Part shown: positions 10,667-29,580 of the stretch, piece after piece
Numbering within the stretch: position 1 is the first letter of the stretch
How the letters are laid out: each line of letters begins with the position of its first letter
NCBI RefSeq assembly: GCF_000177675.1
Contig: NZ_ADGX01000091.1
Location: forward strand, 1 to 33,901
Direction: 5' to 3'
Origin: Parafrankia sp. EUN1f
GTDB taxonomy: Bacteria > Actinomycetota > Actinomycetes > Frankiales > Frankiaceae
Length of the DNA stretch: 33,901 bases
Program-made: the position numbers and the translations under genes
Notes under the pieces: generated by a model
Told to the model about the DNA's origin: nothing
Database searches by the model: none
Seen by the model: the letters and a program-made list of their open reading frames with translations, nothing else

Positions 10667-13072
10667 CTAGTCGGCTGCCTTTCGCAGGACGGTCGTCACG
10701 AGCTTGTCCGGACCAATCCGTCGGACGGTACCCCGGTCGGGCTCACTCACGTAAACCGCGCCGGAGGCGTCGATCGCGAGCCCGGAGGGATAACTGAACT
10801 CGGTCTCGGTCGCGAGGGCACCGTCAGCGGTGTTCGCGTCGACGTCATCCGTGCCGGCGAACGTGTTGATCTTACCGTCCGTGGTGACCACGCGAATCAC
10901 ATCGTTGTAGGTGTCGGCGATGTAGAGCTCGCCCTCCGGCCCGACCGCGAGGCTGTGCGGGTTGTAGAGCTTCGCCGAGGTCGCGGCGCCGCCGTCACCG
11001 GAGTAGCCGTAGGCGCCGGGCGTGCCGGCGACCAGCGTGATCTTCCCGTCGGTTGAGATCCTGCGAACCGTGTGCGCGCTGCTGTCCGCGACGTAGAGCG
11101 TTCCGTCGTCGGCGAGAGCGAGGCCGGACGGGCTGGTGAAGGTCGCCTTCTCCGCCAGGCCGTTGTCGCCGGTGGTGCCGGAGTCGCTGGTGCCGGCGAT
11201 CACCCTGATGATGCCGTCCGACGTCACCTTGCGGACGCGGTAGCCGGAGGCGATGTAGAGGTCACCCTCATCGGAGACCGCCACCGCTCGGGGATCGGAA
11301 AGCTTGGCGCCGACGGCCTTGCCGGAGGTTCCGCTGAACCCCTCACCCGGCCCGGCACCGGCGACGGTGGTGATCTTCCCGTCGGCGACGCGGCGGATCC
11401 GGCCGTCGTCGCTGTCCGCGACGTAGACGTCGCCGTCGGGCCCGGCGGCGACCGCGACCGGGGCGATCAGGTCCGCGCGCGTGGCCGGCCCATCGTCGCC
11501 GAGCACCGGCGTCGGTGACGGCGTCGGTGACGGTGAGCTCGATGGGGACGAGGCCGGTGCGTCCGTGCTTTCGGCGGTGGGGCTCGGCGTGGTATCGGGC
11601 GGGCCGACCCCGGCGAGATGGGTGAGCTTCCCGTCGGGGCTCAGTCGCAGGACCTGGCCCTGCCACTTTCCGGACGAGCCGCTGTCGGCGAGGTACAGCG
11701 AACCGTCGGGGCCGATGCCGATCCCGTCCGCTCTGTAGAGACCGCTTACCTCGACCGCCTCGCTGCCGGCGTAGGCCGGTCCCTCGGGGTCCGAGCCGCC
11801 GGCGGTGAGCCAGATCCCCAGCCCGAGTGCCACCGCGAGCACGGCCACGGCCGTCGCCGACGCGGTGATGATCTTTGCGCGCCGCGAACGGCCTCCTGGG
11901 CCGGTCGGCTGGCGGTGCCCGTTGCGGCCGCTGTGCCCGCGGGGCCCGGTCGATGGGCCGACCGTCTCATCCGCGTAGTCCTCGACCCTGGTCGGGGCTA
12001 ACCCCGCGGTACCCGCGTACGGAGCGGTACCCGCGTACGGAGCGGTACCCGCGTACGGAGCGGTACCCGCGTACGGAGCGGTACCCGCGTACGGCGGGCG
12101 GCCGGCGGCTCCGTCGCCGCCGAGCTGCCTGGCGATCTCGGCGGGCCTCGGAGTGGTGCCCTGGGTGTGGCCGGCGGCGGCGAGCACGTCGTCGGCCAAT
12201 CGCACCGGGACGCCGCTGACGGCGAGCCAGCCGGGTCCGAACACGGAGGTGGCCGCGGAGGCGAGGGACAGGGCGAAGTCGTGCGCCGTCGGCGGGCGCC
12301 AGGCCGGCTCCTTCGCGAGCGCGGTGAGGAGCACCGCCGCCAGCGGCGGCGGAGCCTCGTTGAGCGGCAGTGGCGGCACCGACATGTGGTGGTGCAGCAG
12401 CGCCGGGACGGTCAGGCCGGCGGGGAACGGGGTCCGCCCCGCGAGCAGCTCGTACAGGACGACACCGAGGGAGTACAGGTCGGTGCCCGGCCCGAGCCGG
12501 GAGCCGGTGATCTGCTCCGGGGCCATGTACCGCGGAGTGCCGACGAGGCCGGTGGTGGTCGCCGCCGTCGTCTCAAGGATCTTGGCGATGCCGAAGTCGG
12601 TGACCTTGGGCGTGCCGTCTCCGGCGAACATCAGGTTGTCGGGCTTGACGTCCCGGTGCAGGACGCCGCGATCATGGGCGGCGGCCAGCGCCGCCGCGGC
12701 CGCCAGCCCGACGGCGCAGGCGGCGCGCGGGTCGCGCAGGCCCGGCCCGCGGGTCTTCAGGCTTCCGCCGGTGAGCTGCTCCATGACCAGCAGGCACAGG
12801 CCGTCCTGCTCGACGTAGTCGTAGATGCGCACGACATGCGGGTGGTCCAGGCCAGCCAGGACGCGGGCCTCGGAGAGGAACCGGTCCCGCAGGTCGCTGT
12901 CGCCCCCGCCGTGGGCGCCGGCCGGCTCCAGCAGGACCTTGACCGCGACGTCCCGGTCAATAAGGCGATGCCGGCCGGCCAGCACGGCGCCGAAACCGCC
13001 GCGCCCGAGCTCCGCTCCGAGCTCGTAGCCCGTCAGCGCGCCGGCGACTCGCCCCAGGTCGATGGAAGTCAC
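10667..13072 (-). CDS. Receptor-like Ser/Thr protein kinase with extracellular NHL propeller (copy 1)
   Basis: The 801-residue PknD-like kinase has a complete Hanks domain (about 15-280): GRGGFG loop (23-28), Lys45, HRDVKPDN with Asp141 and Asn146, DFG Asp159 and PRYMAPEQ, so it should be active. A juxtamembrane segment carries five PYAGTA hexapeptides, followed by one membrane helix (about 394-421). The outer part has six NHL-type repeats (YLAD/YVAD signatures followed by V/I-R-x-I and AGT turns), fitting a six-bladed beta-propeller. After the kinase domain comes FGPGWLAVSGVPVRLADDV, a motif shared with the neighbouring paralogue. GTG 13072 has GGAGAA 8 nt upstream. The outer domain probably senses a wall or extracellular ligand. 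It lies 57 nt after the second kinase and 31 nt before the flavoenzyme. Confidence 0.92.
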   Translation of the reverse strand: MTSIDLGRVAGALTGYELGAELGRGGFGAVLAGRHRLIDRDVAVKVLLEPAGAHGGGDSDLRDRFLSEARVLAGLDHPHVVRIYDYVEQDGLCLLVMEQLTGGSLKTRGPGLRDPRAACAVGLAAAAALAAAHDRGVLHRDVKPDNLMFAGDGTPKVTDFGIAKILETTAATTTGLVGTPRYMAPEQITGSRLGPGTDLYSLGVVLYELLAGRTPFPAGLTVPALLHHHMSVPPLPLNEAPPPLAAVLLTALAKEPAWRPPTAHDFALSLASAATSVFGPGWLAVSGVPVRLADDVLAAAGHTQGTTPRPAEIARQLGGDGAAGRPPYAGTAPYAGTAPYAGTAPYAGTAPYAGTAGLAPTRVEDYADETVGPSTGPRGHSGRNGHRQPTGPGGRSRRAKIITASATAVAVLAVALGLGIWLTAGGSDPEGPAYAGSEAVEVSGLYRADGIGIGPDGSLYLADSGSSGKWQGQVLRLSPDGKLTHLAGVGPPDTTPSPTAESTDAPASSPSSSPSPTPSPTPVLGDDGPATRADLIAPVAVAAGPDGDVYVADSDDGRIRRVADGKITTVAGAGPGEGFSGTSGKAVGAKLSDPRAVAVSDEGDLYIASGYRVRKVTSDGIIRVIAGTSDSGTTGDNGLAEKATFTSPSGLALADDGTLYVADSSAHTVRRISTDGKITLVAGTPGAYGYSGDGGAATSAKLYNPHSLAVGPEGELYIADTYNDVIRVVTTDGKINTFAGTDDVDANTADGALATETEFSYPSGLAIDASGAVYVSEPDRGTVRRIGPDKLVTTVLRKAAD
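12006..12095. repeat. Five 18-bp direct repeats in the kinase juxtamembrane region
   Basis: Five head-to-tail copies of GCGGTACCCGCGTACGGA (12006, 12024, 12042, 12060, 12078), identical except for the last base of the fifth, encode PYAGTA hexapeptides on the minus strand. The near-absence of synonymous differences points to recent expansion or conversion. Each unit also contains the palindromes GGTACC and CGTACG. Confidence 0.95.
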
Positions 13073-13129: not shown

Positions 13130-15778
13130 TTACTCGGCGATCGTCGTGATCGTGCCGTCGGGGGCTATGCGCCGGATCCGGTTGTTGCCCGAATCGGCGA
13201 TGTAGAGCGCCCCGGTGGAGTCCTCGACCACCGAGCTCGGATCGGTGAACTTGGCCTCCGTCGCCGGGCCGCCGTCACCGGAGCTGCCCTCGGATCCGGT
13301 GCCGGCGATGGTGGTGATCGTGCCGTTCGCGTCCACCTTGCGGATCCGGTTGTTGCCGTAGTCGGCGATGTAGAGCGTGCCGTTGCGGCCCAGGGAGACC
13401 GACGGAATGGAGAGCTGGGCCTTGGTGGCCGGGCCGCCGTCGCCGGAATAGCCCTGCTCACCGGTTCCGGCCACGGTGTGGATGGTTCCGTCCGTGTTGA
13501 TCTTCTGGATGGTGTCGCTGCCGAGGTTGGCGATGTAGAGGGTGCCGTCGCTGGCCACCTCGACATCGTTCGGGCCGTTCAGCGTGGCGGCCGTGGCCGG
13601 GCCGCCCTCTCCGGAGTAGCCGTCGACGCCCGTGCCGGCGATCGTGGTGATTATTCCGTCCGTGGAGATCTTCCGGATGCGGTGGTTCTCGTAGTCCGCG
13701 ATGTAGATCGATCCATCCGGGGCGACCGCCAGCTTTTCCGCGCTTTTGAGCTGCGCGGCGGTCGCCGGGCCGCCGTCACCCGAATACCCGGCGACGCCGG
13801 TGCCCGCGATCGTGCTGATGGTCCCGTCTGCGGCGATCTTCCGGATGCGGTAGTTCCGCGCGTCGGGAATGTAGATGTTGCCCTTCCCGTCGGTCACCGC
13901 GGAACCCGGACCGTCGAGTTTCGCGGCGGTCGCGGGCCCGCCGTCACCGCTGAACCCGCCCGAGCCGGTGCCGGCGAGGTCGGACACCGAACCGGTGGCG
14001 GAGATCTTCTGCAGCCGGTCGGTCGCGAGGCTGGTGATCAGCAGCGCACCCTGGTCGTCGATCGAGAGGCTGTAGGGGCTCAGCCCCTGCACCGTGACAG
14101 CCGCCCCGCTGTAGGCGGCTGCGTTCGCCGGGCTGGAGCGGACCTCGTCGCCGCCGTGGTCCTTGTTTCCGCCGCCGGACAGGGCCACGACGAGGCCGAC
14201 CGTCAGCGCGACGACCAGAACGAAGACGACCGCCGCGATGATCAGGGTGCGACTGTTGTCGTTGCTGTCCTGGTTGCGGTGGCCGGGCGGCCGCTGGCTC
14301 CCCGGCGGCGTGTGCTGCACCGGGGGGCGCTGGGTCGGTGCCGCGTTCGCGCCGCCCCAGCCCTGACCGCCGAAGTTCGACCCGCCCTGGCCCGGCTGGC
14401 CGGGAAAGGGACGGGTCGGCCCGGGACGCCCCAGCGGCGCCGGCTGCGGTGTCGCGCCTGGCGGCGGCCCCACCGGGCGTGGCTGTGGTGTCGATCCTGG
14501 CGGCGTGAGCGGGCCGGGCGCGGGCGTCGTGCTCGGTGGGCCCTGCAGTGGCCGTGGGTGCGGAGTGCTGCCGCCGGGCTGCCCGTAGCCGGGTTGGCCG
14601 TAGCCCGGCTGGTTGAAGCCGGTTTGGCTGTAGCCGGGCTGACCGGGGCGGCTCATACCTGGCAGCTGGGCACCCGTGCCCGGGTAGCCCGGGTGCGGAT
14701 GGCCCTGCGGCTGGCCGCGGTAGCCGCCGCCCACGGGCTGGCCGGGTCCCTGCTGGCCGGGTCCCTGCTGGCCCGGTCCCTGCTGGCCCGGTCCCGGCGG
14801 GTAGCCCGGGCCGCCGGGGCCACCGGCCGGGAAGTTGCCACTGGCGCGAACCGTCGGGGCGGCGCCCGAGTGCATGCCCGTGCCGGTGCCGCCCAGCGCG
14901 GCGCGGATGTCGTCATCCACCCGCACCTTCACCTCGGAGCGGGCGAACCAGCCCGGGCCGAACGAGCGGGTGCCCGCGGCGGCGAGCTCCTGGGCGAGCT
15001 CCGACGCGTCCGAGAAGCGGGCGCCGGGCTCCTTGGCGAGGGTGCGCATGATGACCGCGGAGATCGGCGCGGGCACCATGGTGAGCGGTTCGGGCATCAC
15101 GCTCAGGTGGTGATGTGTCAGCGGCTGCACGGCCATCTGCCGGCCGAACAGCGGCCTGTCGGCGAGCATCTCGTAGAGGACGCCGGCCAGCGCGTACAGG
15201 TCGGTGGAGGGGAACAGCCGCCCGCCCATGATCTGCTCGGGGGCCATGTAGCGCGGCGTGCCGAGAATGGCGCTGGCGGTCGTCTCGGCGCCGTCGAAGA
15301 TCTTCGCGATGCCGAAGTCGGTGACCTTGAGCAGGCCGGCGCCGTCGAACATCATGTTGTCGGGCTTGACGTCCCGGTGAAGCACGCCGTGGCTGTGCGC
15401 GGTCGCGAGCGCGGCTGACGCGGCGATGCCGATGGCGCAGATGGTCTCCGGGGAGAGCTTCCCGGTGGCCATCCGCTGCTTCAGCGTGCCGCCGGAGAGC
15501 AGCTCCATCACCAGCAGGCAGGTTCCCTGGTGCTCGACGTAGTCGTGGATGCGCACGATGTGCGGATGGTCGAGCTCGGCGAGGACGCGGGCTTCGGAGA
15601 GGAAACGCGCACGTAGATCGGGGTCGTCGCTCGTGTCGAGGAGGATCTTGATGGCGACCTTGCGGCCGATGAGCCGGTGCTGGCCGGCGAGCACGAGGCC
15701 GTAGCCTCCCTTGCCGAGGTCCCCCTCGACCGTGTAGCCAGGGAGCGCCGCCTCCACGAGAGATCTGTCGATAAGCAA
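13130..15778 (-). CDS. Receptor-like Ser/Thr protein kinase with extracellular NHL propeller (copy 2)
   Basis: The 882-residue paralogue of the next gene has the same plan. Its Hanks kinase domain (about 15-275) has GKGGYG, Lys44, HRDVKPDN with Asp136 and Asn141, DFG Asp154 and PRYMAPEQ. A shared FGPGWFARSEVKVRVDDDI motif follows, then a very long Pro/Gly/Gln-rich linker (about 305-500) with GPGQQ and QPGYG repeats, one membrane helix (about 509-533), and six NHL repeats with near-identical GYSGDGGPAT turns. It would sense outside and phosphorylate inside. The start is TTG at 15778, chosen because the N-terminus then aligns with copy 1; the ribosome-binding site is weak (GGACGGAA). An inverted repeat lies 43 bp upstream. 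It is probably the first gene of a kinase-kinase-flavoenzyme unit. Confidence 0.92.
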   Translation of the reverse strand: MLIDRSLVEAALPGYTVEGDLGKGGYGLVLAGQHRLIGRKVAIKILLDTSDDPDLRARFLSEARVLAELDHPHIVRIHDYVEHQGTCLLVMELLSGGTLKQRMATGKLSPETICAIGIAASAALATAHSHGVLHRDVKPDNMMFDGAGLLKVTDFGIAKIFDGAETTASAILGTPRYMAPEQIMGGRLFPSTDLYALAGVLYEMLADRPLFGRQMAVQPLTHHHLSVMPEPLTMVPAPISAVIMRTLAKEPGARFSDASELAQELAAAGTRSFGPGWFARSEVKVRVDDDIRAALGGTGTGMHSGAAPTVRASGNFPAGGPGGPGYPPGPGQQGPGQQGPGQQGPGQPVGGGYRGQPQGHPHPGYPGTGAQLPGMSRPGQPGYSQTGFNQPGYGQPGYGQPGGSTPHPRPLQGPPSTTPAPGPLTPPGSTPQPRPVGPPPGATPQPAPLGRPGPTRPFPGQPGQGGSNFGGQGWGGANAAPTQRPPVQHTPPGSQRPPGHRNQDSNDNSRTLIIAAVVFVLVVALTVGLVVALSGGGNKDHGGDEVRSSPANAAAYSGAAVTVQGLSPYSLSIDDQGALLITSLATDRLQKISATGSVSDLAGTGSGGFSGDGGPATAAKLDGPGSAVTDGKGNIYIPDARNYRIRKIAADGTISTIAGTGVAGYSGDGGPATAAQLKSAEKLAVAPDGSIYIADYENHRIRKISTDGIITTIAGTGVDGYSGEGGPATAATLNGPNDVEVASDGTLYIANLGSDTIQKINTDGTIHTVAGTGEQGYSGDGGPATKAQLSIPSVSLGRNGTLYIADYGNNRIRKVDANGTITTIAGTGSEGSSGDGGPATEAKFTDPSSVVEDSTGALYIADSGNNRIRRIAPDGTITTIAE
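14741..14806. repeat. 15-bp tandem repeats encoding GPGQQ in kinase copy 2
   Basis: About four imperfect copies of a 15-bp unit (CTGCTGGCCCGGTCC form) encode GPGQQ pentapeptides in the disordered linker on the minus strand. They differ mainly at single wobble-like positions. Confidence 0.8.
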
Positions 15779-19178: not shown

Positions 19179-19207
19179 GCACACGCTCGCCCTGACCCGA
19201 GCCGGCG

Positions 19208-20371
19208 TCAGGTGCCCGTGCAGTCGATGTTCGACGGCCCGGACTGCGCGCCGGTGACCTGGTTGTCACATCCAACGATGTTCTGGGTCTTGTCGCCGTC
19301 GTGGATGTAAACGCCGAAGCCCTTCGCGTTAACGGTCAGCGTGTTATGACGGATGGTGTTCTGCCGCCCCCAGTCCTTTTTGATGACGTGGGTCTGGATT
19401 CCGTCCTCCAGCGTTCCGCCACCCGTACCGATGTTGTCCTCGACGAGCCAGCCGTTGCCCTTCAGGTCGATCCAGGAGTCGGCCTCGACCAGAGCATCCG
19501 AGGAGAGGGTGTTCCCGCGGACCACGCCTCCGGTCGTGCCCTCCTTGATATCGATGTTCTCGGAGGTCGTACCGGCGATGTCGTTGCCGATGACGGAGTT
19601 GCGGTCGCTGCGGTCGGGCTCACAGTCCGTATAGGTGCACCAGTTGCTCTCGGCGCTGCCGATGTAGACGCCCTCGCCGAACTTCTCCCGCCGGTTTCCG
19701 GTATCCCGGATCACGTTGCCGACGACCGTGTTGTCGGAGCTTGCGGTCCGCAGATGGATCGCCTCGTCGCCGATCGTGTTGACCTGGAGCCGGGCGATGA
19801 TCGAATGCTGGAGACGGTCCGCCATCACTCCCTTCTGCCCGTTGCGCACGGTGAAGCCGACCACTCGGACCCAGGACGCGCCGTCCAGGTGCAGGACGTA
19901 GTTCACCTGGTCGTCGTCCTCGGTGCCGTCGAGGATCGCGTCCTTCGAGCCGCACAGCCAGATCGGCGCGGCCTCGGTGCCTGCCGCCGTGAGCTTGAAC
20001 TTCCCCTTGTAGACGCCGTCGGCGATCCGGATGACCGTGCCCGGTTTCGCCGTGGCCAGCGCACTGCGCAGGTCGCCCGCGTCACTCACGGTGGCGCCAC
20101 CGGCCGGGCAGGTGATGCCGCCGTCGACGGCCGCCGTGGCGGAGGCCGACGCGAACGGGTCCGGGCCGGCGGTGGCCCACGCCGTGGCGGTGTCTGTGGG
20201 CTCCGCTCGCGGACGAGCGGTCGATCCCGGTGGCTCCCTGTCCGGGGCGGGGTCCGACCCGTTCCCTGACCCGCAGGAGGTCACCGCGACCGCGACTCCG
20301 GCGAGAATGCTGGTCGCGGCCAGGGTCATGGTCCGGCGGCGGTGCGAACGGACCGGGCGACGGCTGATCAC
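19208..20371 (-). CDS. Right-handed beta-helix lipoprotein, PL6/chondroitinase-B-like
   Basis: The 387-residue product has a basic n-region, a hydrophobic stretch and lipobox VTSC (Cys33), then a Pro/Thr/Ala linker. The mature part (about 90-385) starts with the parallel beta-helix entry motif of polysaccharide-lyase family 6 relatives (TVIRIADGVYKGKFKL, then GTEAAPIWLCGSKDAILDG). It continues with short repeated strands ending in N-x-I/V turns (NTVVGNVIRDTG, NSVIGNDIAGT, NTIRHNTLTVN). It probably acts on an extracellular uronate polymer as lyase, epimerase-like enzyme or binding protein; catalytic Lys/Arg cannot be assigned by eye. GTG 20371 overlaps the upstream gene's stop (GTGA, 20368-20371). 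It is the last gene of the leftward polysaccharide arm. Confidence 0.82.
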   Translation of the reverse strand: MISRRPVRSHRRRTMTLAATSILAGVAVAVTSCGSGNGSDPAPDREPPGSTARPRAEPTDTATAWATAGPDPFASASATAAVDGGITCPAGGATVSDAGDLRSALATAKPGTVIRIADGVYKGKFKLTAAGTEAAPIWLCGSKDAILDGTEDDDQVNYVLHLDGASWVRVVGFTVRNGQKGVMADRLQHSIIARLQVNTIGDEAIHLRTASSDNTVVGNVIRDTGNRREKFGEGVYIGSAESNWCTYTDCEPDRSDRNSVIGNDIAGTTSENIDIKEGTTGGVVRGNTLSSDALVEADSWIDLKGNGWLVEDNIGTGGGTLEDGIQTHVIKKDWGRQNTIRHNTLTVNAKGFGVYIHDGDKTQNIVGCDNQVTGAQSGPSNIDCTGT

Positions 20372-22218
20372 GCGCTGGATTCTCCCTCGGACCGTTGTTT
20401 GCGAAGCTGGTGTGGGTCGTCGCCCGGCGGACCGACGGTCTCCAACTGTCTGGTCTCCGGCTGTCCGGTTCCCGGCTGCCCGGCGTGGCCGGTGACGTCA
20501 TCCGCCGGCTCGGCGGTGCCGAACAGGTCGAACGGGGCACCGCGCTGCCCGGGGATGCCGGAGAAGGCGGCGGCGGGGCGCATCGTGCCGCCGGTCAGCC
20601 GCCGGACCAGCAGCTCCGACTCCGGGTATGGATGGCTCGGCGGCCGCCGGCGGGCCCGGTGGCGGGTCCAGGCGCCGGCGATCGGGAACAGCGCCACGGC
20701 GCCCCACACCAGGAGCGCCGGGTGCCGGCGGATCAGCGTGTACCAGTGCTGCGGCTCACGTTCCACCCAGGCCTGTGTGTTGTTGTTGTGGACGTCGCCC
20801 CCGTCGATCCCGGTGGACTGGCGGGTGTCGACCGCACGCCAGCCCTCACCGCCCAGGTTGTTCCACTGGATGACCGAGTCGTCCGCTATCCCGCGGACGG
20901 TGATCGCGAAGTCGGTGGCCCCGCGTACCAGGTTGCGGCTGATGATGGTCGTCATGGCGTCCTGGGTGATGACGCCCAGCCGGCCGTCGGCCATCGAGTT
21001 CTCGGTGATCGCGGTGCGGCGCGCGTCCGGGCCGATCTGGATGCCGGCCTCCGCGGCGCCGTTGATCGAGTTGGCGGTGACCTGGGTTCCGTTGGCGCCG
21101 CTCTTGACGAGGATGCCGAGCTGCCCTCCGCTGATCTTGTTCTTCCTGACGATGGTGTTCTCACCGCCGACGACCCGGATCCCGTACCGGCCGTTGCCGG
21201 TGATGGTGTTCTCCTCGATGAGGGTGTCCTTGATCTGGTTGACCGTCACACCGGTCGCCGTGGCGACCACGCCGAGGCCACGGCCGTCCAGGGAGATGCC
21301 GTCACCGCTGTTGTCGGTCACCGTGCTTCGCATGACCCGGGAGGAGGACGCCCGGTCGATGGTCATGCCGTCGCCGTGGTTGCGCGACGACGTGACCCCG
21401 GATACCAGGGTGGTGATGGCGTCCCGGTGGACGGCCAGGCCGGAGCGCTCGTTGTCGACCAGCCGCACGCCGACCATCTGGATGCCCTCGCTGCCCGAGA
21501 TGTAGGCACCGTAGATGTTGTCGCTGAACGTCGAGTTGGCCGCGCCGCCGGTGCTCGGCTCGCCCTTGCTCCCGGTCCAGGCGATCCCACCGGTCCGGCC
21601 GTTCCAGAAGCCCAGGTGGTTGGCACTGGTGTTGCGCACGATCAGCTCACCGCCCATGGTGCGCAGGTAGGCCCGCCCGTCGGTGGTGAGGGTGTCCGGT
21701 TCGAGGTTCTGGACGTCCCAGCCGACGATCGTGAGCGGGTCCTGCGGTGAGGCTCCGGCGAACTCCAGCCCCCCGCGCCAGCTGGCGACGGAGGCGAATC
21801 CGGACGCCCCGCTGGCCAGCCGCAGGGTGTGCACACCGGCGTCGATGACGAGCCTGGCCTGCGGGCCGACCAGCACGTGGGTGGTGAACATCACCGCCCC
21901 GTCCACCTCGTGGCGCCCGCCGCCGGCCGCGATGACGTCCTCAGCGCTGTAGGGCTCCTTGCGCGCCGGCAGCAGCAGCGTGGGCAGGCTGCCGGTGGTC
22001 TCGACCAGCGTCGGCTCGGTGAGCACGCCGAACCGCGCGAACATGGACCGCAGCCGGATGTCCTCCGCGTCGACCAGCTCGGACTGCTTCTTCGCGTCCG
22101 CGGAGCTGACCGGCGGCAGGGGCGCCACGGGTGACGCCTGGGCGGGCGCCGCCGGCAGCAGGATCGCGCCGGTGACGACGGCGAGGACAGCGAAGACGAA
22201 GGAGACGGCGGCCCTCAC
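20368..22218 (-). CDS. Secreted, C-terminally anchored parallel beta-helix protein (NosD/AlgG-like)
   Basis: The 616-residue protein has an N-terminal signal peptide with an AQA-S cleavage site near residue 29 and a domain with many beta-helix coils (about 200-470; repeated NTI/NTIT/NGxYGIRVxGGENTIV patterns). One membrane helix lies near the C-terminus (about 499-520), followed by a basic, then Pro/Gly-rich cytoplasmic tail. This resembles the CASH/NosD-type helices of alginate C5-epimerases (AlgG) and related processing proteins. The start is GTG 22218, overlapping the glycosyltransferase stop as GTGA; the frame is open to 23286 but would then overlap the whole synthase. It probably modifies or guides the polymer as it leaves the synthase (inference from coupling). 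Confidence 0.85.
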   Translation of the reverse strand: MRAAVSFVFAVLAVVTGAILLPAAPAQASPVAPLPPVSSADAKKQSELVDAEDIRLRSMFARFGVLTEPTLVETTGSLPTLLLPARKEPYSAEDVIAAGGGRHEVDGAVMFTTHVLVGPQARLVIDAGVHTLRLASGASGFASVASWRGGLEFAGASPQDPLTIVGWDVQNLEPDTLTTDGRAYLRTMGGELIVRNTSANHLGFWNGRTGGIAWTGSKGEPSTGGAANSTFSDNIYGAYISGSEGIQMVGVRLVDNERSGLAVHRDAITTLVSGVTSSRNHGDGMTIDRASSSRVMRSTVTDNSGDGISLDGRGLGVVATATGVTVNQIKDTLIEENTITGNGRYGIRVVGGENTIVRKNKISGGQLGILVKSGANGTQVTANSINGAAEAGIQIGPDARRTAITENSMADGRLGVITQDAMTTIISRNLVRGATDFAITVRGIADDSVIQWNNLGGEGWRAVDTRQSTGIDGGDVHNNNTQAWVEREPQHWYTLIRRHPALLVWGAVALFPIAGAWTRHRARRRPPSHPYPESELLVRRLTGGTMRPAAAFSGIPGQRGAPFDLFGTAEPADDVTGHAGQPGTGQPETRQLETVGPPGDDPHQLRKQRSEGESSA

Positions 22219-23489
22219 TGGGCACCACTCGCTGCCGACACGGCTGCCGGGCGTGCCGCGGACCCGGTGCGGGTCGAGGCGTCGGTCTGCCCCTCCCCGC
22301 CGATGAGGTCGGATCTCCGGGTGAGCCAGCCCTGCTTGTTCATCGACACGAAGGCCCAGGCCTTGATCGGCAGGGCGACTATGATGATCATCAGCACGGT
22401 CAGCGGGAGGATGAAGATGTCGCGCGGGTGCTCCCGCAGGTGTGAGAGCCCGCGGATGAGACGGCCGAGCAGCAGCCAGCAGATCGCGATGATGGGTGCG
22501 TTGGCCTCGGGCCGGAACATCCACAGCACGAAGTAGGTCATCGCGACGCCCATCGTCACGGGCGTGAGGACGATCTGCAGCACACTGACCTGGGTGACCA
22601 GCGGCTGCCGCCACAGCCATCCCTTGTAGATGGCTGTGAGGTAGGTGCGGTAGGAGTTCCGGCTCCAGCGCACCCGCTGCTTGATGAAGGCCCGGAGGTT
22701 GTCGGGGAACATCGACATCGCGTGGGCTGTGTGCTGGTGCATCGTCTTGTAGCCGGACGCGAGCACCAGCCAGGTGAGCCGGCCGTCGTCGCCGGCGATG
22801 CACCGCCGGCCGAGGAAGAACTCGTGTTCCAGGTTGTGCAGCACCGGCAGGATCGCGGAGCGCCGGTAGGCCGCGGTGCGCCCGGAAAGGCAGGCGACGG
22901 CGCCGACCCGTCCCTGGGCGGGCACGTAGTCCAGGTAGCGGATGTCGACCAGCCAGTTCGCGACCCGTCGCCAGACGCTGCTGCGTGGCTCGTAGACGTT
23001 CTGCCGGGTGCCCACCCCGCCGACCTGCGGATCGATGAAGGGCATCTGGACCGCGGCGAGGAGCCCGGGCTCCCACGCGGTGTCGGAGTCGCAGAGGACG
23101 ACGACGTCCATCGTCGCTGCGGACAGGCCGACGCCGAGCGCGGACCGCTTGCCCTCGTGGACGAAGGGGATCACCCGAACGGTCGGATCGGCGCGCATCG
23201 CGAGTCGAGCGATGAGCTCCGCGTCCTCGATGTCGGGGATGATGATGATCTCGTCCGGCTCCTGGGCGAGCCACGTTTCCAGGCATCGCATCAGGACGTC
23301 CGGATCCTCCCGGAAGGAAGGAACCACAACGGACGTTGTTGTCCGGAAATTATTTCGTATAGGTCGGTATCTGGTCGAGAGTATCCGGCGTGTGAGCCAG
23401 ACCACCCAGGACACGACACCGGCGATTCCGAGCGGTACCAGAGAGCGATGATCGCGGATGAACTGCACCGCATCGCCGAGCCACTCCAT
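22215..23489 (-). CDS. Processive family 2 glycosyltransferase (hyaluronan-synthase/NodC/Alg8-like polysaccharide synthase)
   Basis: From ATG 23489 (GGGGGGAG about 11 nt upstream) the protein has 424 residues. One N-terminal membrane helix (about 14-33) is followed by a cytoplasmic GT-A domain with VVVPSFREDPD, GKRSALGVGL, DSD (134-136), GDD (233-235) and QRVRW (271-275), then several C-terminal membrane helices. DxD, GDD and QxxRW are the signature of processive, membrane-embedded synthases that polymerise and export from nucleotide sugars. The longer frame to 23711 is not codon-typical. It heads a leftward arm coupled by GTGA to two beta-helix genes, and the divergent dehydrogenase would supply UDP-glucuronate or GDP-mannuronate. 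Which sugar is used cannot be read from the sequence. Confidence 0.92.
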   Translation of the reverse strand: MEWLGDAVQFIRDHRSLVPLGIAGVVSWVVWLTRRILSTRYRPIRNNFRTTTSVVVPSFREDPDVLMRCLETWLAQEPDEIIIIPDIEDAELIARLAMRADPTVRVIPFVHEGKRSALGVGLSAATMDVVVLCDSDTAWEPGLLAAVQMPFIDPQVGGVGTRQNVYEPRSSVWRRVANWLVDIRYLDYVPAQGRVGAVACLSGRTAAYRRSAILPVLHNLEHEFFLGRRCIAGDDGRLTWLVLASGYKTMHQHTAHAMSMFPDNLRAFIKQRVRWSRNSYRTYLTAIYKGWLWRQPLVTQVSVLQIVLTPVTMGVAMTYFVLWMFRPEANAPIIAICWLLLGRLIRGLSHLREHPRDIFILPLTVLMIIIVALPIKAWAFVSMNKQGWLTRRSDLIGGEGQTDASTRTGSAARPAAVSAASGAQ

Positions 23490-23715
23490 GCGAAATTCCG
23501 CTCCCCCCGAGCGTGGGTAACCGAGATCACAGAGTTCGTCGGCGAGGAGCTGGAGGGCGTGCGTGAACCGTCGGGCGCGCCAGCCCTCGGTGTTACCCCC
23601 TGCAACCCGCCGCTTCCCTTTGTGGGTGGCGTTGTCAATACCTTGACCTGAAGCAACGCGACGGCAGGCAGGACGGTAGCAGTCGCCACAACCTTCCTGA
23701 ATGGGTGTCACTCAT

Positions 23716-23758
23716 TTGTAACCCAGGTGTACTCAACTATTACTTTTAGTAGTTGAGT
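23716..23758. promoter_or_regulatory. Candidate promoter and inverted-repeat operator between the polysaccharide arms
   Basis: ACTCAACTA (23731-23739) and TAGTTGAGT (23750-23758) form a perfect 9-bp-arm inverted repeat with a 10-bp AT-rich spacer. On the plus strand, TTGTAA (23716-23721) and TATTAC (23738-23743) are 16 nt apart and could be the dehydrogenase promoter, with the repeat covering the -10 region. This is the only conspicuous element in the gene-free stretch 23490-23872. Confidence 0.5.
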
Positions 23759-23872
23759 AGTCGCGAGCCGGGGCGTGTCCGCCTCTTCGGTACCCCGCTC
23801 ACCCCAACGAAACGTGGACGAGTCACAATGCGCTCCGCGGCCTGACGGCAGAAGCTAGGTGGGGGGAACACC

Positions 23873-25285
23873 ATGGGTACCGATACGGCGGGCACCGGGC
23901 CGGTGACTGCACCACTTCGGATCAGCGTCATTGGCACCGGGTACCTGGGCGCCACGCACGCGATCTGCATGAGCGAGCTCGGTTTCGACGTCGTGGGTGT
24001 CGACGTCGATCCCGACAAGGCGCGCCGGCTGTCCGACGGCGAGGTGCCCTTCTTCGAGCCCGGTCTGGAAGCGCTGCTGCGCAAGAACCTGGAGACCGGC
24101 CGGTTGGCGTTCACCACGTCGTTCGCCGACGCGGCCGACGCCGACGTGCACTTCCTGTGCGTGGGCACCCCGCAGCGTCCGGACTCGGGCGCCGCGGACA
24201 TGACCTACGTGGACGGTGCGGTCGAGGCGCTGCTCGCCGCCGGGCCGAAGGCCGGCTCCCTGCTGGTGGGCAAGTCGACGGTCCCGGCCGGCACGGCGGT
24301 GCGCCTCGCCGGCTGGCTGGCCCGTGAGGCCCCCGAGGTCGACCTCGCGTGGAACCCGGAGTTCCTGCGGGAGGGTTTCGCGGTCGAGGACACGCTGCGC
24401 CCGGACCGCCTGGTCTTCGGCCTGCCCGCCGACGACGAGTGGTATGGCGTGGCGGACCGCACCGACCTCGGGGTCCAGACCGGGCGCCGGGAGCGGGTGG
24501 AGGCCACGCTGCGGGCGGTCTACGCGACCGCGCTGGCCGCGGGCACGCCCGCCGTCGTCGCCGACTTCGCCACGGCGGAGCTGGTGAAGGTCGCCGCGAA
24601 CGCCTTCCTTGCCACGAAGATCTCCTTCATCAACGCGATGTCCGAGGTCTGCGAGGTCGCCGGTGCCGACGTGAAGACCCTCGCCTCGGCCCTGTCGTAC
24701 GACACCCGGATCGGCGGGCGTTTCCTCGGCGCCGGCCTCGGCTTCGGCGGCGGCTGCCTGCCCAAGGACATCCGCGCGTTCCAGGCCCGGGCCGCGGAGA
24801 TCGGCGCCGGTGACGCGCTGCGCTTCCTGGACGAGGTCGACACCGTCAACCTGCGTCGCCGCACGCGGACGGTGGAGCTCGCCATCCATCTGCTCGGTGG
24901 TGGCGCGGCCGGGCGGCGGGTCGCCGTGCTCGGCGCCGCGTTCAAGCCCAACAGCGACGACATCCGCGACTCGCCAGCGCTCGACGTGGCCGACACGCTG
25001 CGTCGTTCCGGCGCCCGGGTGACGGTCTACGACCCGGCCGCCATGGTGAACGCCGCCCGCAAGTTCCCCGACCTGCGTTACGCCGCCGGGGTCTCGGAGG
25101 CCGTCGCCGACGCCGACATCGTCCTGCACCTGACCGAGTGGGCGGACTTCCGGGAGATCGAGCCGTCGTTGCTGACCTCGCTCGTGCGCCGGCCGGTGAT
25201 CATCGATGGCCGTAACACCCTCGAGCCGCAGCGGTGGCGCGACGCGGGCTGGATCTACCACGCGCTCGGCCGTCCGAACGTATGA
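23873..25285 (+). CDS. UDP-glucose / GDP-mannose 6-dehydrogenase
   Basis: The 470-residue cytoplasmic NAD-dependent enzyme oxidises a nucleotide hexose to the uronic acid. The N-terminal Rossmann motif GTGYLG is at 21-26 and FLCVGTP at 94-100; NPEFLREG has Glu163; Lys239 and Asn243 lie in ELVKVAANAF; the catalytic Cys295 is in GGGCLPKD; and the C-terminal domain has VLGAAFKPNSDDIRDSPAL. ATG 23873 follows AGGTGGGGGG closely. The superfamily contains both UDP-glucose (Ugd) and GDP-mannose (AlgD) enzymes, and the sequence alone does not decide; UDP-glucose is more common in actinobacteria. It is coupled by ATGA to the lyase-like gene and divergent from the synthase, so it is the likely precursor supplier. 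Confidence 0.94.
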   Translation: MGTDTAGTGPVTAPLRISVIGTGYLGATHAICMSELGFDVVGVDVDPDKARRLSDGEVPFFEPGLEALLRKNLETGRLAFTTSFADAADADVHFLCVGTPQRPDSGAADMTYVDGAVEALLAAGPKAGSLLVGKSTVPAGTAVRLAGWLAREAPEVDLAWNPEFLREGFAVEDTLRPDRLVFGLPADDEWYGVADRTDLGVQTGRRERVEATLRAVYATALAAGTPAVVADFATAELVKVAANAFLATKISFINAMSEVCEVAGADVKTLASALSYDTRIGGRFLGAGLGFGGGCLPKDIRAFQARAAEIGAGDALRFLDEVDTVNLRRRTRTVELAIHLLGGGAAGRRVAVLGAAFKPNSDDIRDSPALDVADTLRRSGARVTVYDPAAMVNAARKFPDLRYAAGVSEAVADADIVLHLTEWADFREIEPSLLTSLVRRPVIIDGRNTLEPQRWRDAGWIYHALGRPNV

Positions 25286-26226
25286 GCAGCGGCGGGTCGA
25301 GGCGGGCGCTGCTCGCCTCGACCGTCGGCTCGCTGGCCCTGGCGGCCGCCACCGGATGCGGGATCTTCCCGGCTGATCGGCGCTTCGACCCGGCGAGTGA
25401 GGTGCTTCCGCCCGACGCCACCACGAGCCCCGCCGTGACCGCGACACCCGTGGCGGCGCGGCGGCGGACCCTCGCCGACCCGGCGGCGTCGCGCGAGTTC
25501 TTCGGCAAGGCGCTGGTCCCCACCGACCGGATGACCTTCGGGCTGGACCGTGCCGAGATCATGCGCTCGGACGACCCCCGCTTCCCGTCGTTCCTGCGTG
25601 TCTCGCTCCCGGTGGACGCCGCGAACCCGGAGGACCGGCGCATCTACCGCGACGGGACGACCTACGGCGGGACGCAGCTGTTCGTCGACCACACGCTGCG
25701 GTCGCCTTACGAGCTGTACCTGCGCTACTACCTCCGGTTTCCGGAGGCGTTCGACTTCGGCAAGGGCGGCCGGCTGCCCGGGTTCTTCGGCACCATCGTG
25801 AAGAACCGTGAGCGCACCGAGACCCTGCGCAGCGGGCTGGCGACGCGATTCGCCTGGCGGGAGGGCGGCGCGGGCCTGGTCTACGCGAACACCGCCCGCC
25901 CGGACCATCCGTTGAACGTGATCGGGAAGGCCTCCTGGTACTGGCCGACCGGCCGGTGGGTGTGCGTCGAACAGGGGGTGAAGCTCAACTTCGAGGGCTT
26001 CGCCGACGGGGTGATCCTGATGTGGCTGGACGGTGCGCTGGCCCACAAGGAGAAGTTCAATCCGCGGATCTCGAACGATCTGCGGATCGGTGGGGTCCTC
26101 ATGCAGGCGACCTTCGGTGACGGCGGTTCGGCGTTCGCGCCGACCGCACCTGCGACGATCGATCTGGCCGGCTTCACCTACGGCACCGCCCGGCTCAACC
26201 CACTGCCCCGGCCGGAGAAGACCTAG
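25282..26226 (+). CDS. Polysaccharide lyase family 14-like lipoprotein
   Basis: From ATG 25282, which overlaps the dehydrogenase stop (ATGA), the protein has 314 residues. The signal SRRALLAS with lipobox ATGC (Cys26) suggests export, perhaps by Tat, and lipidation. The globular part (about 70-305) contains FDFGKGGRLPGFFG, the hallmark of the beta-jelly-roll PL14-type alginate/glucuronan lyase fold, followed by strands such as FAWREGGAGLVYAN and GVILMWLDGALAHKEKF. It probably cleaves or trims a uronate polymer at the cell surface, similar in role to AlgL in alginate systems (analogy). Catalytic residues cannot be assigned by eye. The longer frame from 25234 has no start signal. Confidence 0.78.
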   Translation: MSSGGSRRALLASTVGSLALAAATGCGIFPADRRFDPASEVLPPDATTSPAVTATPVAARRRTLADPAASREFFGKALVPTDRMTFGLDRAEIMRSDDPRFPSFLRVSLPVDAANPEDRRIYRDGTTYGGTQLFVDHTLRSPYELYLRYYLRFPEAFDFGKGGRLPGFFGTIVKNRERTETLRSGLATRFAWREGGAGLVYANTARPDHPLNVIGKASWYWPTGRWVCVEQGVKLNFEGFADGVILMWLDGALAHKEKFNPRISNDLRIGGVLMQATFGDGGSAFAPTAPATIDLAGFTYGTARLNPLPRPEKT

Positions 26227-26228
26227 CC

Positions 26229-26286
26229 GAGGTGCTGTTCAGCCGAGGTGCTGCGCTAACTGAGGTGCTGCGCTAACCGAGGTGCT
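26229..26286. repeat. Four 16-17-bp repeats spanning the cyclase stop codon
   Basis: GAGGTGCT recurs at 26229, 26245, 26262 and 26279 within a 16-17-bp unit. The last copy codes for the end of the minus-strand cyclase protein (AEHLG and its TAG at 26273-26275). The others fill the 46-bp convergent gap and carry extra stop codons, as if the gene's end had been duplicated outward. Confidence 0.88.
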
Positions 26287-29200
26287 CGGCGTTGAGGCGT
26301 TCGAACAGCCGCCGGCCCATCGTCGCGGCGGCGCGGTTCCCCCGGCGGAGGAAGCGTGCCGCGGCGGCCTCCAGGCTTTCCGCGGCGTCCTCCTTGCGCC
26401 CGGCGCGGTAAAGGACCTCGGCGCGGGCCAGCAGGGCGGTGCCCTGCCCGTCGATGTCGTCGGTGCGGCTGGCGAGATCGCAGGCCGTGTCGGCGAACCG
26501 CAGGGCCTCGGCGTCCCGGCCGGAGATCGCCAGGAGCCGGGCGTGCACCGAGCACCAGCCGGCCTGGGCCGGTAGTTGGTCACCCGCGGCGGCGTCCCGG
26601 CAGCGGTTCACGTACTTGGTCGCCTCCTCCAGCTTGCCCAGCCGGACCAGGACGTCGGCGAGCAGGGCGGCCCGGGTCGCCAGATGCGCGCGCTCGCCCA
26701 TCCGCGACAACTGGCGGCAGCTGCGGCGGAGCTCGCGCTCGGCGATCTCCGGCTCGTCGGCGAGCAGCGCGACCCGGGCGACGACGAAACCGCTGTGGAA
26801 CGGGTCCGTCCGGGCGCCGCGGATGTCCCCGATCAGCTCGTCGGCGTCCTTGAGGTGGGTGCGGGCGGCCTCCATGTCGCCGGACATGGCGTTGAGCAGC
26901 GCGAGCTGGGCGAGAACCGCCCGGCGCAGGCCGCGGTCGTCACCGGCCGCCTCCAGCATCGCGGTGGCCTTCACGATCGAGAAGGGCACCGGGCTCGGCA
27001 CGAGGCTCAGCAACAGGACGAGCTCGCGGCGCAACGAGTGCGCGGCCCTCGGCACCCCGGACTCCTCGGCATGCCGCACCGCGTTCTCCAGGGCCTTCTC
27101 GGCGGCGGCGAACTGCCCGGCGGCGCCGTACGCGGCACTCTGGCTGCGGCAGGCGAGCGCCGCCCCGACGTCGTCGCCGTCGCGGACGAAGGAGGCGAGT
27201 GCCGCTGTGGCCTCGGTGAGGGTGCTCGCCACCAGGCCCTCCGGATCGGTGGCGAACAGCACCCGCAGGTGCGCGAGCCGGGCGTGGGCGCGTAGCCCGT
27301 CCTCGCCGGCGCGCCGGGCCCGCTCACTGACCTGGCGCAGGATGCGCTCGGCATCGGAGAGCCGGCCGAACGAGTACAGCGCCCAGCCGAGGTCGATCTC
27401 CGCGCGCAGCCGCAGCGGGTCGGTCTCAGGAAGGAGCGTGATCGCGCGCTTCAGCAGTTGCGCGGCGCCTGTCTCGTCACCCTGGCGAACCCGGTCGGCC
27501 GCCTCGATCAGGCAGGTGGCGGCGGACCGGCCGAGCTCCACCATCTCGCTGTCGCGCTGGCCGAGCTCCACCCGGTAGCGGTACGCCTGCTCCAGGTGGT
27601 AGCCGACCAGCTCGTCGTGCTCACCCGGGCCGCCGACCATCCGGGCCTGCAGCCAGCCGGCGAACCGCTGGTGCAGGTCGGCGCGCTGGCGCTTGGACGT
27701 CGTCTGGTACGCGCAGTCACGCAGCAGGACGTGCAGGAACCGGTAGGCCTCCACCCCCGGCAGGTCCGAGCGGTCGGGGTGCACCAGCTCCTTGCGGACG
27801 AGTGACAGGCAGTGATCCAGGACGTATGGCCGCTCCGCCGGGTCGGAGAGCTCCACCACGGCGTCCAGGTAGAAGCGCTCGCCGACGACCGCGGCCCGTT
27901 CGAGGACCTGGCGCTCCGGTGGGTCGAGGCGGTCGAGACGGGCGGCGAGCAGTGCTGAGATGGTCGGCGGCACGGTGACGCCGCGCAGGTTGCCGGCGGC
28001 GATCCACCGGTTGCCCTCCCGGCGCAGCAGGCCGTCGTCGACGAGCGCGGCGACCATCTGCTCGACGAACAGCGGGTTGCCCGCCGCCGAGGTGGTGATC
28101 CGGGAGACCAGGGCCGGATCCAGGTCGTCCGAACCCATCAGGGTACGGATCAGCCGGTGGCAGCGGTCCTCCGTGAGCGGTGCCAGCAGCATCGAGGTGG
28201 CGTTGAGCTTGCCGCCGCCCCACTGGCGCCGGTCCTCCAGCAGCTCGGGCCGGGACAGGCACAGCAGCAGGATGGGAGCGTCGCGGGACCAGTCGGCGAC
28301 GTGCTCGATCAGATCCAGCAGGGTCGGCTCGGCCCAGTGGACGTCGTCGAAGCACAGCACCAGCGGCCGCTGCTCGGCCAGCGCCTGGAAGAAGGTGCGG
28401 ACCGCCCAGAAGCTCTCCTGGGTGCCCAGCTCCGCGCCACCCAGCCCGACCAGTGGGGCGAGTGCGTCCACCACCTCGGCGGCCTGCGGGACGCCGGTGA
28501 GCAGCCTCTTGAGGCGCAGGCGGCCGTCCGGCGCGCTCTCGTCGGCGGACATGCCGGTGGCCTGGCGCACCATCTCCATCAGTGGCCAGTAGGCGATGCC
28601 CTCGCCGTAGGACAGGCAACGGCCGGAGAGCACGGTCGCCCGGCTGGTGATGGACTGGCAGAACTCGCCGACCATCCGGGACTTGCCGATGCCGGCTGGC
28701 CCCAGCACGGTGAACAGGTGGCAGGTCCGCTCCTCCACGACCGCCTCGAAGGCGTCCTGGAGCCGGCGGCGTTCGCGGTTGCGGCCGATCACCGGCGCCG
28801 CGAACCCCTGCACGGGCTCCCGCAGGCCGGGGCCCGCCGTCGGGTTGCGTAGCCCGAGCAGCCGGTGCGCCCGCACGGGTTCCCGCTTGCCCTGCACCAC
28901 CAGCGGCCCGACCGGGCTGACCGTGACACTGTGGCGGACGAACCGGTAGGTGCTGTCGCCGATGAAGATCTCGTCCGGCGGGGCGGCCTCCTCCAGCCGG
29001 GAGGCCACGTTGACCGGGTCACCCGTCGCACCGCCGCCGGCGACGGTCACCTCGCCGGTGTTGATGCCGATCCGCACCCGCAGCCGAAGGCCCAGATCAC
29101 GATGGAACTCGGCGTTGAGCTCCTCCATAGCGGTGCGGATGTCCAGCGCGGCCCGGACGGCGCGCAACGCGTCGTCCTCGTGCAGCACCGGGATGCCGAA

Positions 29201-29476
29201 GACGGCGAACACCGCGTCCCCGATGAACTTCTCGACAGATCCGCCGTGGGCGTAGATGACCTCGCGGACGGTGGTGAAGAACCGCCACATGACCTGCTGC
29301 AGCTGTTCGGAGTCGATCTTCTCGCCCATGTCCGTCGACCCGGTGATGTCGACGAACATGATTGTGACGATCTTGCGTGCGCCGCTGCCGGCGACGGGCA
29401 GCGGATTCCCGCACTCGGAGCAGAAGCGCGCTCGATCGGGGTTCCCCTGCTCCCCGCATGTCGGGCACAGCGCCAT
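26273..29476 (-). CDS. Zinc-ribbon / class III adenylate cyclase / AAA ATPase / TPR signalling protein
   Basis: The 1067-residue protein starts at ATG 29476; the frame stays open to 30316 but that would overlap the ABC permease. An N-terminal zinc ribbon (C4-x2-C7, C19-x2-C22) leads into a class III nucleotide cyclase domain (about 33-205) with metal Asp43 (FVDITGS) and Asp87 (FIGDA), base-selecting Lys83 and Asp153, and Asn156/Arg160 (NVASRLE). All expected residues are present, so ATP to cAMP activity is likely. An AAA/STAND ATPase domain follows (P-loop GPAGIGKS 259-266; Walker B-like LVLCFDDVHWAE), then a TPR-like helical region to the end. No membrane helix is visible. It is probably a cytoplasmic sensor in which NTPase/TPR state controls cAMP output; the ligand is unknown. 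Confidence 0.93.
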   Translation of the reverse strand: MALCPTCGEQGNPDRARFCSECGNPLPVAGSGARKIVTIMFVDITGSTDMGEKIDSEQLQQVMWRFFTTVREVIYAHGGSVEKFIGDAVFAVFGIPVLHEDDALRAVRAALDIRTAMEELNAEFHRDLGLRLRVRIGINTGEVTVAGGGATGDPVNVASRLEEAAPPDEIFIGDSTYRFVRHSVTVSPVGPLVVQGKREPVRAHRLLGLRNPTAGPGLREPVQGFAAPVIGRNRERRRLQDAFEAVVEERTCHLFTVLGPAGIGKSRMVGEFCQSITSRATVLSGRCLSYGEGIAYWPLMEMVRQATGMSADESAPDGRLRLKRLLTGVPQAAEVVDALAPLVGLGGAELGTQESFWAVRTFFQALAEQRPLVLCFDDVHWAEPTLLDLIEHVADWSRDAPILLLCLSRPELLEDRRQWGGGKLNATSMLLAPLTEDRCHRLIRTLMGSDDLDPALVSRITTSAAGNPLFVEQMVAALVDDGLLRREGNRWIAAGNLRGVTVPPTISALLAARLDRLDPPERQVLERAAVVGERFYLDAVVELSDPAERPYVLDHCLSLVRKELVHPDRSDLPGVEAYRFLHVLLRDCAYQTTSKRQRADLHQRFAGWLQARMVGGPGEHDELVGYHLEQAYRYRVELGQRDSEMVELGRSAATCLIEAADRVRQGDETGAAQLLKRAITLLPETDPLRLRAEIDLGWALYSFGRLSDAERILRQVSERARRAGEDGLRAHARLAHLRVLFATDPEGLVASTLTEATAALASFVRDGDDVGAALACRSQSAAYGAAGQFAAAEKALENAVRHAEESGVPRAAHSLRRELVLLLSLVPSPVPFSIVKATAMLEAAGDDRGLRRAVLAQLALLNAMSGDMEAARTHLKDADELIGDIRGARTDPFHSGFVVARVALLADEPEIAERELRRSCRQLSRMGERAHLATRAALLADVLVRLGKLEEATKYVNRCRDAAAGDQLPAQAGWCSVHARLLAISGRDAEALRFADTACDLASRTDDIDGQGTALLARAEVLYRAGRKEDAAESLEAAAARFLRRGNRAAATMGRRLFERLNAEHLG

Positions 29477-29580
29477 GTGCGGGATCGTAGGCCGATCGTG
29501 GTGCCGAGCGGAAAGGGATGCGGAGACGCGCCGTGCCGGCAGTGACCTATGCCACATCACGGAATCGGGCGGGGGGCTGT

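Follow-up and report, generated by a model that had tools for sequence, protein, structure and literature searches.

Five adjoining genes of Parafrankia sp. EUN1f, here named A to E, probably constitute an actinobacterial synthase-dependent uronan system whose most likely product is beta-1,4-glucuronan. The genes lie in a 33,901-nucleotide stretch of DNA (NZ_ADGX01000091.1, hereafter the window), which corresponds to contig C306 in a draft genome of 9.35 Mb (G000; 396 contigs, 99.1% complete). The assignment as a uronan system is well supported by genomics. It rests on the gene content, the coupling of the genes, their co-conservation, the joint absence of both arms of the locus from a relative, the AlgG-like fold of the model of B, and the retained catalytic residues of polysaccharide lyase family 31 (PL31) in A. 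The polymer is likely a glucuronan-type uronan rather than alginate, which is an unlikely product.

One arm of the locus is encoded on the minus strand. It comprises C (22215–23489; 424 aa), a processive family 2 glycosyltransferase (GT2) synthase assigned by profile matches to the hyaluronan synthase / NodC group; B (20368–22218), an AlgG-like beta-helix protein with an N-terminal signal or anchor, as indicated by an AF2 model and fold search; and A (19208–20371), a predicted PL31-type polyuronate lyase with a right-handed beta-helix and a probable lipoprotein (phmmer, alignment, hydropathy). A divergent intergenic region (23490–23872) separates this arm from the other, which is encoded on the plus strand and harbors D (23873–25285), a putative UDP-glucose 6-dehydrogenase that would make UDP-glucuronate (similarity to solved structures), and E (25282–26226), a PL14-like secreted protein (PF21294). 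The five genes are present where the original prediction had placed them, on the evidence of open reading frames (ORFs) and of Pfam, NCBIfam, and PDB matches. Pfam matches above cut-off identify GT2 (C), right-handed beta-helix (A and B), NDP-sugar dehydrogenase (D), and PL14 (E) domains, and the NCBIfam and PDB matches agree with these assignments. Codon bias backs A, C, D, and E as genes, while B is a 616-aa ORF whose frame stays open far upstream. Hydropathy reveals signal-like N-terminal stretches in A, B, and E as well as hydrophobic segments in C.

Within each arm, the genes are tightly coupled, as had been proposed: 4-base overlaps connect C to B (22215–22218), B to A (20368–20371), and D to E (25282–25285). 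Both arms are jointly absent in a relative of the same genus (G005, discussed below). The start of C is the methionine at 23489, at which homology across relatives begins, rather than the earlier call at 23711; the near-identical locus L021 carries a stop codon upstream of this start. The divergent gap between C and D is therefore 383 bp. E most likely starts at 25282, with an ATGA overlap, rather than at 25234.

The distribution of the genes was followed from C, which was searched in 58 relatives (25 with a match at E ≤ 1e-10, 15 with a close form of at least 62% identity) and in 393 genomes of the class (33 at E ≤ 1e-60). The synthase of locus L082, used as a query, matched 5 of 396 genomes of the phylum, four of them new. 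The neighborhoods were fetched and scanned with hidden Markov models (HMMs) built from relatives. The main clade is defined as the 33 loci, including the window, whose synthase is at least 55% identical to that of the window or of L082; these loci are related, so the counts are not independent. B accompanies C in 32 of them, A in 29, D in 24, and E in 14, the last only in Frankiaceae. The sole locus lacking B (L030) is cut by a contig end. Among the four lacking A, L020 and L030 end with their contigs immediately past B or C, L087 shows no A in the 2 kb that follow B and breaks off within C, and L077 truly lacks A in the fetched stretch. The gene order can be rearranged: in L033, C-B-A-E share a strand and D is on the opposite one, and L034 has the order C-B-B'-A-D. 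The co-conservation of the five genes, which the original prediction had offered as a check, is thus borne out, also where the order differs. The cassette occurs in families well outside Frankiaceae, and the grouping is beyond chance, since many further genomes have these genes together.

The 58 relatives give the same picture. A is found in all 15 genomes with a close C and in one of the 43 others, there as a broken fragment (G029). B is detected at E ≤ 1e-30 in 13 of the 15 and in none of the 43; of the two misses, G015 has a cut contig and G050 a divergent B that is detected by HMM. E is detected at E ≤ 1e-50 in 14 of the 15 and again in none of the 43. Four of these 43 genomes (G005, G010, G017, and G028) give weaker PL14 matches, and six carriers, including G000, have second copies.

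G005 retains a kinase, PGI, STAS, a small gene, D, and a cyclase in the order of the window but has no segments matching window 19179–23783 (A, B, and C) and 25308–26276 (E). Because the cassette is carried elsewhere in the genus and in sister genera, this arrangement is read as a probable loss of both arms with retention of D. The joint absence of both arms indicates that C, B, A, and E behave as one unit.

Other neighbors were considered as parts of the cassette. PGI and STAS adjoin it in nine g1/g6 loci, including the window, and are not counted because they are unseen in L029–L034. A scan of the neighbors of seven distant loci (L034, L072, L073, L078, L081, L083, and L084) found an acyltransferase, an FG-GAP protein, a GH8 protein, GHMP kinase/SIS/HAD genes, and a PAPS reductase in a single locus each, and ABC-type ATPases in two distant loci; none of these, including ABC transporter parts, is counted as a component. 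GT2 relatives at 28–36% identity (L037–L039) have no B, A, or E in their fetched stretches; L037 has a dehydrogenase fragment at its edge.

C harbors all of the motifs of processive GT2 enzymes (DxD, GDD, and Q..RW) and hydrophobic segments, and its motifs DSDT, GDDGRLTW, and QRVRW are conserved among relatives. Its best match among solved structures is hyaluronan synthase (HAS), with a profile E-value of 8.5e-36 as compared to ~1e-3 for cellulose synthase. The alignment to Class I hyaluronan synthases (viral HAS, HAS1) spans most of the length of C and shares GDD and Q..RW, although the similarity is distant. The best NCBIfam model is NodC (5e-38), at 131 bits far below its cut-off of 550. 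On sequence grounds, C falls into the hyaluronan synthase / NodC group of processive GT2 enzymes.

This kinship is the starting point of the main rival explanation, in which C is a HAS-type enzyme and the product is a hyaluronan- or heparosan-like polymer of alternating glucuronate (GlcA) and N-acetylglucosamine (GlcNAc), with D supplying UDP-GlcA. We consider such a product unlikely. Hyaluronan lyases belong to PL8, PL16, PL30, and PL33, and the five proteins of the cassette have no Pfam match to lyase families other than their own at E ≤ 0.01. In addition, the fold nearest to B is that of a homouronan epimerase, and AlgG-fold or PL31 partner proteins are not known from hyaluronan systems. 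PL31 and PL14 are instead listed with alginate lyases, PL14 also under EC 4.2.2.14.

The donor sugar is indicated by D, which scores 307.5 and 266 bits with the UDP-glucose enzymes 4a7p and 2y0e, respectively, versus 163 bits with the GDP-mannose enzyme 1mfz. Its best NCBIfam equivalogs are TuaD/AglM, matched below their cut-offs. By similarity, D is predicted to be a UDP-glucose 6-dehydrogenase. No GDP-mannose dehydrogenase was found in the draft assembly of G000, where only D and L041 match the superfamily at E ≤ 1e-10. A known GDP-mannose enzyme matches D at 1e-46, and one encoded in G000 would therefore be expected to show. The best specific model for L041 is a UDP-N-acetylmannosamine dehydrogenase (UDP-N-acetylhexosamine type), and L041 adjoins an ORF that reads, by eye, as a UDP-GlcNAc 2-epimerase.

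Other genomes point in the same direction. A D protein of 61–66% identity is encoded elsewhere in all seven genomes tested from the nine main-clade loci without a nearby D. At L083 (G277), the cassette is adjoined by a non-orthologous UDP-glucose dehydrogenase of the Escherichia coli type (631.7 bits against a cut-off of 757), and the same genome carries a 58% identical D elsewhere. G366, the genome of L082, in which B has the DPHD motif of AlgG, encodes one dehydrogenase of the superfamily at E ≤ 1e-15, which is of the UDP-glucose type (the genome is 95% complete). The UDP-glucose type of D, the failure to find a GDP-mannose type in G000, the presence of D elsewhere in the genomes, and L083 together argue for a UDP-glucuronate donor, which is the likely precursor. 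D itself is a shared enzyme with uses other than the cassette.

These observations bear on two further alternatives. The first is alginate proper, i.e., polymannuronate formed from GDP-mannuronate and epimerized to guluronate, as the AlgG fold of B, the membership of A in an alginate-lyase family, and the DPH-type beta-helices of some relatives might suggest. It is highly improbable in view of the UDP-glucose type of D, the UDP-N-acetylhexosamine type of the other superfamily enzyme of G000, the single UDP-glucose-type enzyme of G366 despite its DPHD-bearing B, and the non-orthologous UDP-glucose dehydrogenase of L083. In the second, the product of C is a neutral or amino-sugar polymer, and D is an incidental neighbor. 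NodC is indeed the best model for C, though only at the score given above, and D is housekeeping-like and is retained by the cassette-less G005. Polysaccharide lyases require a uronate in their substrate, however, and a PL31-type lyase stands with C in 29 of the 33 loci, while a non-orthologous UDP-glucose dehydrogenase adjoins one cassette (L083). A neutral or amino-sugar product is accordingly regarded as quite unlikely.

The AF2 model of B, built from four sequences, has a mean pLDDT of 77.6, with a C-terminal helix at low confidence. In the PDB, its best fold match is AlgG, with a Foldseek E-value of 2.9e-11 and a VIA Z of 35.6 (345 residues at an rmsd of 3.2); the AlgE epimerases come next at VIA Z 33–34. 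The top seven VIA rows are all AlgG/AlgE epimerases (Z 33.3–35.8), followed by NosD at 30.6 and phage tailspikes at ~30; the rows below the epimerases are taken as shared fold only. AlgG is also the sole PDB family matching B by sequence at E ≤ 0.01 (4nk8, E = 0.0016). In its model, B is a right-handed beta-helix with epimerase-like architecture, i.e., it has the fold of the AlgG/AlgE C5-epimerases. Two adjoining B paralogues are found in L034, L076, and L080, from three fetched genomes of family f17.

A matches PsAly (6kfn, PL31) of Paenibacillus FPU-7 with a phmmer E-value of 9e-40. According to PMC6796002, Tyr184 and Lys221 of PsAly are catalytic, and Glu181, Glu216, and Asp219 are cation ligands. 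In the alignment of the A protein of the window with PsAly, numbered by the Tyr184–Lys221 spacing, 14 of the 17 active-site or cation-site residues named there are identical, including Y184 and K221; the three differences are at the equivalents of D188, K191, and Y244. Among the relatives, thirty A sequences were found, one of which was dropped at below 60 bits. All 29 aligned sequences keep Tyr184, Lys221, Glu181, Glu216, Asp219, His154, Arg156, and Lys252, and 28 keep Asp250. A thus looks competent as a PL31-type lyase, as far as its residues can tell. Unlike PsAly, A is a probable lipoprotein, with a lipobox-like VTSC following a hydrophobic stretch at its N-terminus, and is encoded in a biosynthetic operon. 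The fragment mentioned above in G029, a genome without a close synthase, is a broken A-type lyase with two stop codons (G029:C1:5518895–5519212).

The PL14 domain of E matches PF21294 at 88.1 bits (cut-off 27; E = 8.9e-25), and the N-terminus of the protein is Tat/lipoprotein-like. EC 4.2.2.14 designates glucuronan lyase. PL14 includes vAL-1, which is given this number in PMC8618178. The substrates of PL14 (vAL-1) and PL31, taken together with UDP-glucuronate as the precursor, suggest a 1,4-linked glucuronate homouronan.

Several observations weigh against a glucuronan system. No enzyme with a known product is more than distantly similar to C, whose closest relatives synthesize hyaluronan or chitin oligosaccharides. 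D is missing from the fetched stretch in nine of the 33 main-clade loci and is a general gene, found in 56 of the 58 relatives, including G005, which has no cassette. In B, AVHR occupies the place of the DPHD of AlgG, so that the DPHD aspartates are missing. The structure model of E is poor (pLDDT 43), and its putative catalytic lysine is replaced by arginine. Extra A-type copies occur elsewhere in several carriers, with up to four matches in G006 and G025, and a second PL14 gene lies elsewhere in G000. The characterized PL31 enzyme prefers polymannuronate (PMC6796002), and no PL31 enzyme with glucuronan activity was found in the literature passages covered.

The motif of B was surveyed in 41 sequences, three others having been dropped at below 60 bits (one each in L035, L036, and L086). 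In AlgG, roles are ascribed to the residues H319 and R345. The largest group, termed HR-type, comprises 28 sequences, all of which lack the DPHD aspartates; the arginine is kept in all 28 and the histidine in 26, with glutamine in L029 and asparagine in L025. DPH is found in five B-type sequences (L082, L087, L105, and one copy each in L035 and L036), the motifs of L082 and L087 being DPHD and DPHT, respectively, and the remaining eight of the 41 have neither HR nor DPH. The tree of C, in which several deep forks are not settled and long branches call for caution, does not fix the order in which the DPHD motif changed. DPHD is named as the epimerase site in PMC11468063. B may thus have changed or lost its activity.

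Accordingly, B may not be an epimerase but may guide or shield the chain as a scaffold without catalytic activity, a role compatible with glucuronan synthesis by the cassette and one to which we give slightly less than an even chance. The loss of the aspartates throughout the HR-type group favors it, as does the title of Gimmestad et al. 2003 (cited in PMC4432689), by which the AlgG protein, and not its activity, is needed for the Pseudomonas polymer. The retention of HR in place of DPHD, however, suggests continued function at that site, and the relatives in L082 and L087 still carry DPHD and DPHT. A more far-reaching proposal is that the AlgG-fold member converts D-glucuronate to L-iduronate (IdoA) within the polymer, the cassette being the first bacterial gene set for glucuronan synthesis. 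On this view, the DPHD members (G366) would act as genuine C5-epimerases of glucuronan, and the HR-type proteins, that of the window among them, would be a divergent version. This proposal is doubtful; if it is true, the bacterial surface polymer would be a poly(GlcA/IdoA), and thereby the counterpart of alginate built from GlcA and IdoA.

E presents a similar case. We take the lysine of GGKLPG and the tyrosine pair of YxY to be the catalytic residues of PL14. In the E protein of the window, GGRLPG and YAN stand in place of GGKLPG and YAY. Among 16 aligned PL14 sequences, arginine (GGRLPG) is found in the nine from g1/g6 and lysine (GGKLPG) in the other seven, while YAN or YSN is found in 13 and YAY in two sister-clade proteins. 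E may therefore have changed or lost its activity, if these residue changes are a guide.

A mechanism can be proposed on the basis of a glucuronan product, in which we infer the donor sugar, the identity of the polymer and its linkage, the reaction of B, and the biological role. D would oxidize UDP-glucose to UDP-glucuronate, which C, as the single membrane GT2, would polymerize and extrude as a linear beta-uronan, most likely beta-1,4-glucuronan. Outside the cell, the anchored AlgG-fold protein B would hold the nascent chain or modify it at C5. The lipoprotein lyase A (PL31 type) would trim or clear the polymer, and E (PL14-like) would bind or cleave it.

Synthases of a wider family show related arrangements. 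Those of L035, L036, and L086 are 41–42% identical to C of the window, and those of L105 and L106 are 46% and 38% identical, respectively, to that of L082. All five adjoin beta-helix proteins and a shortened dehydrogenase. PL14 accompanies four of the five, within the fetched stretch in L086 and L106 and ~11 kb from the synthase in L035 (G028) and L036 (G010); it is unseen in the fetched stretch of L105. In L105 (G427:C102, 9323–11797, minus strand), a DPH-type beta-helix and a GT2 synthase form one 825-aa ORF, with Pfam domains at 264–390 and 466–695, which supports a shared pathway of the two proteins. The profile of the shortened dehydrogenase scores 205 bits with an archaeal UDP-glucose enzyme versus 194 with GDP-mannose dehydrogenase; these scores are near-equal, so alginate is a possible product of the sister synthases. 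L035 and L036 represent a sister cluster in the same family as the window, with 42% identical synthases and three beta-helix genes.

The cassette resembles the alginate systems of Pseudomonas and Azotobacter (Alg8, AlgG, AlgL, and AlgD) in its clustering of a GT2 synthase, an AlgG-fold beta-helix, a uronan lyase, and a superfamily-related dehydrogenase. The parallel to alginate genes drawn in the original prediction holds for the AlgG fold of B and the alginate-lyase family of A (PL31) but fails for the dehydrogenase, which is of the UDP-glucose and not the GDP-mannose type. The best counterpart of AlgL, for which E had been proposed, is instead A, present in 29 of the 33 loci, whereas E is found in 14, only in Frankiaceae, and has altered putative catalytic residues. 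The systems also differ in that the synthase of the cassette has its best matches in the HAS/NodC group and its lyases are of the PL31 and PL14 types, while AlgL is a PL5 enzyme. A GDP-mannose 6-dehydrogenase and the DPHD motif are features of the alginate system that the cassette does not share. Pfam identifies no Alg44/PilZ, acetylation, or outer-membrane genes among the five; the genome was not searched for them.

The original prediction also centered the two arms on one regulatory site, which the C–D gap does not support. Its alignment in nine g1/g6 sequences is poor, and a conserved regulatory palindrome was sought in these nine with none shared. The most regular shared element is a short TAGCAGT-like stretch (window 23670–23690 and the same region of L021–L028). 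In G005, ~89 bp of the gap adjoining D can still be aligned.

Further genes of the window lie on either side of the cassette. A large protein that resembles a regulator and has guanylate-cyclase, AAA, and TPR domains (26273–29572) converges on E and is a conserved neighbor in the fetched g1 and g6 loci. Two adjoining long kinase-type proteins are encoded at 10667–13072 and 13130–15778; the former matches protein kinase and NHL-repeat models, and the latter is similar to it by tblastn cross-matches. A Berberine-bridge-type FAD enzyme with a Tat/lipoprotein-like N-terminus is encoded at 8884–10635.

No description of the cassette was found in the literature searched, which includes few subscription papers. 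A survey of synthase-dependent operons assigns alginate largely to Pseudomonas and places poly-N-acetylglucosamine and Pel types in Gram-positives; its available text (PMC7112194) does not mention this type of cassette. The imp and wps clusters of Actinoplanes were rejected as counterparts, as they are of the Wzx/Wzy type and a text search for helix and lyase was negative in the available text (PMC12691653, PMC13390465). The polymer proposed here is like that of the glucuronan producers Sinorhizobium meliloti M5N1CS and Peteryoungia rosettiformans (beta-1,4-GlcA). According to a 2023 paper, it was still unknown which genes direct the biosynthesis of glucuronan (PMC10180729), and the compact actinobacterial set of a synthase, an epimerase fold, and a lyase provides a directly testable candidate.

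The cassette also bears on the source of brown-algal alginate-type enzymes, since the closest bacterial kin of the algal ManC5-epimerases are reported to be actinobacterial, at ~30% identity (PMC11468063). According to the same 2024 study, PL41 homologues occur mostly in Streptomyces, organisms without a known alginate pathway; an actinobacterial origin of the algal dehydrogenase is not strongly supported, and the epimerase and the lyase had separate donors. PMC8307928 repeats the proposal of a transfer from an actinobacterium. Compared by description only, A differs from the brown-algal lyases (PL41) in being of the PL31 type and keeps residues that are missing in SjAly according to PMC6796002. 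In Frankia-like root symbionts, the cassette may define a surface polymer.

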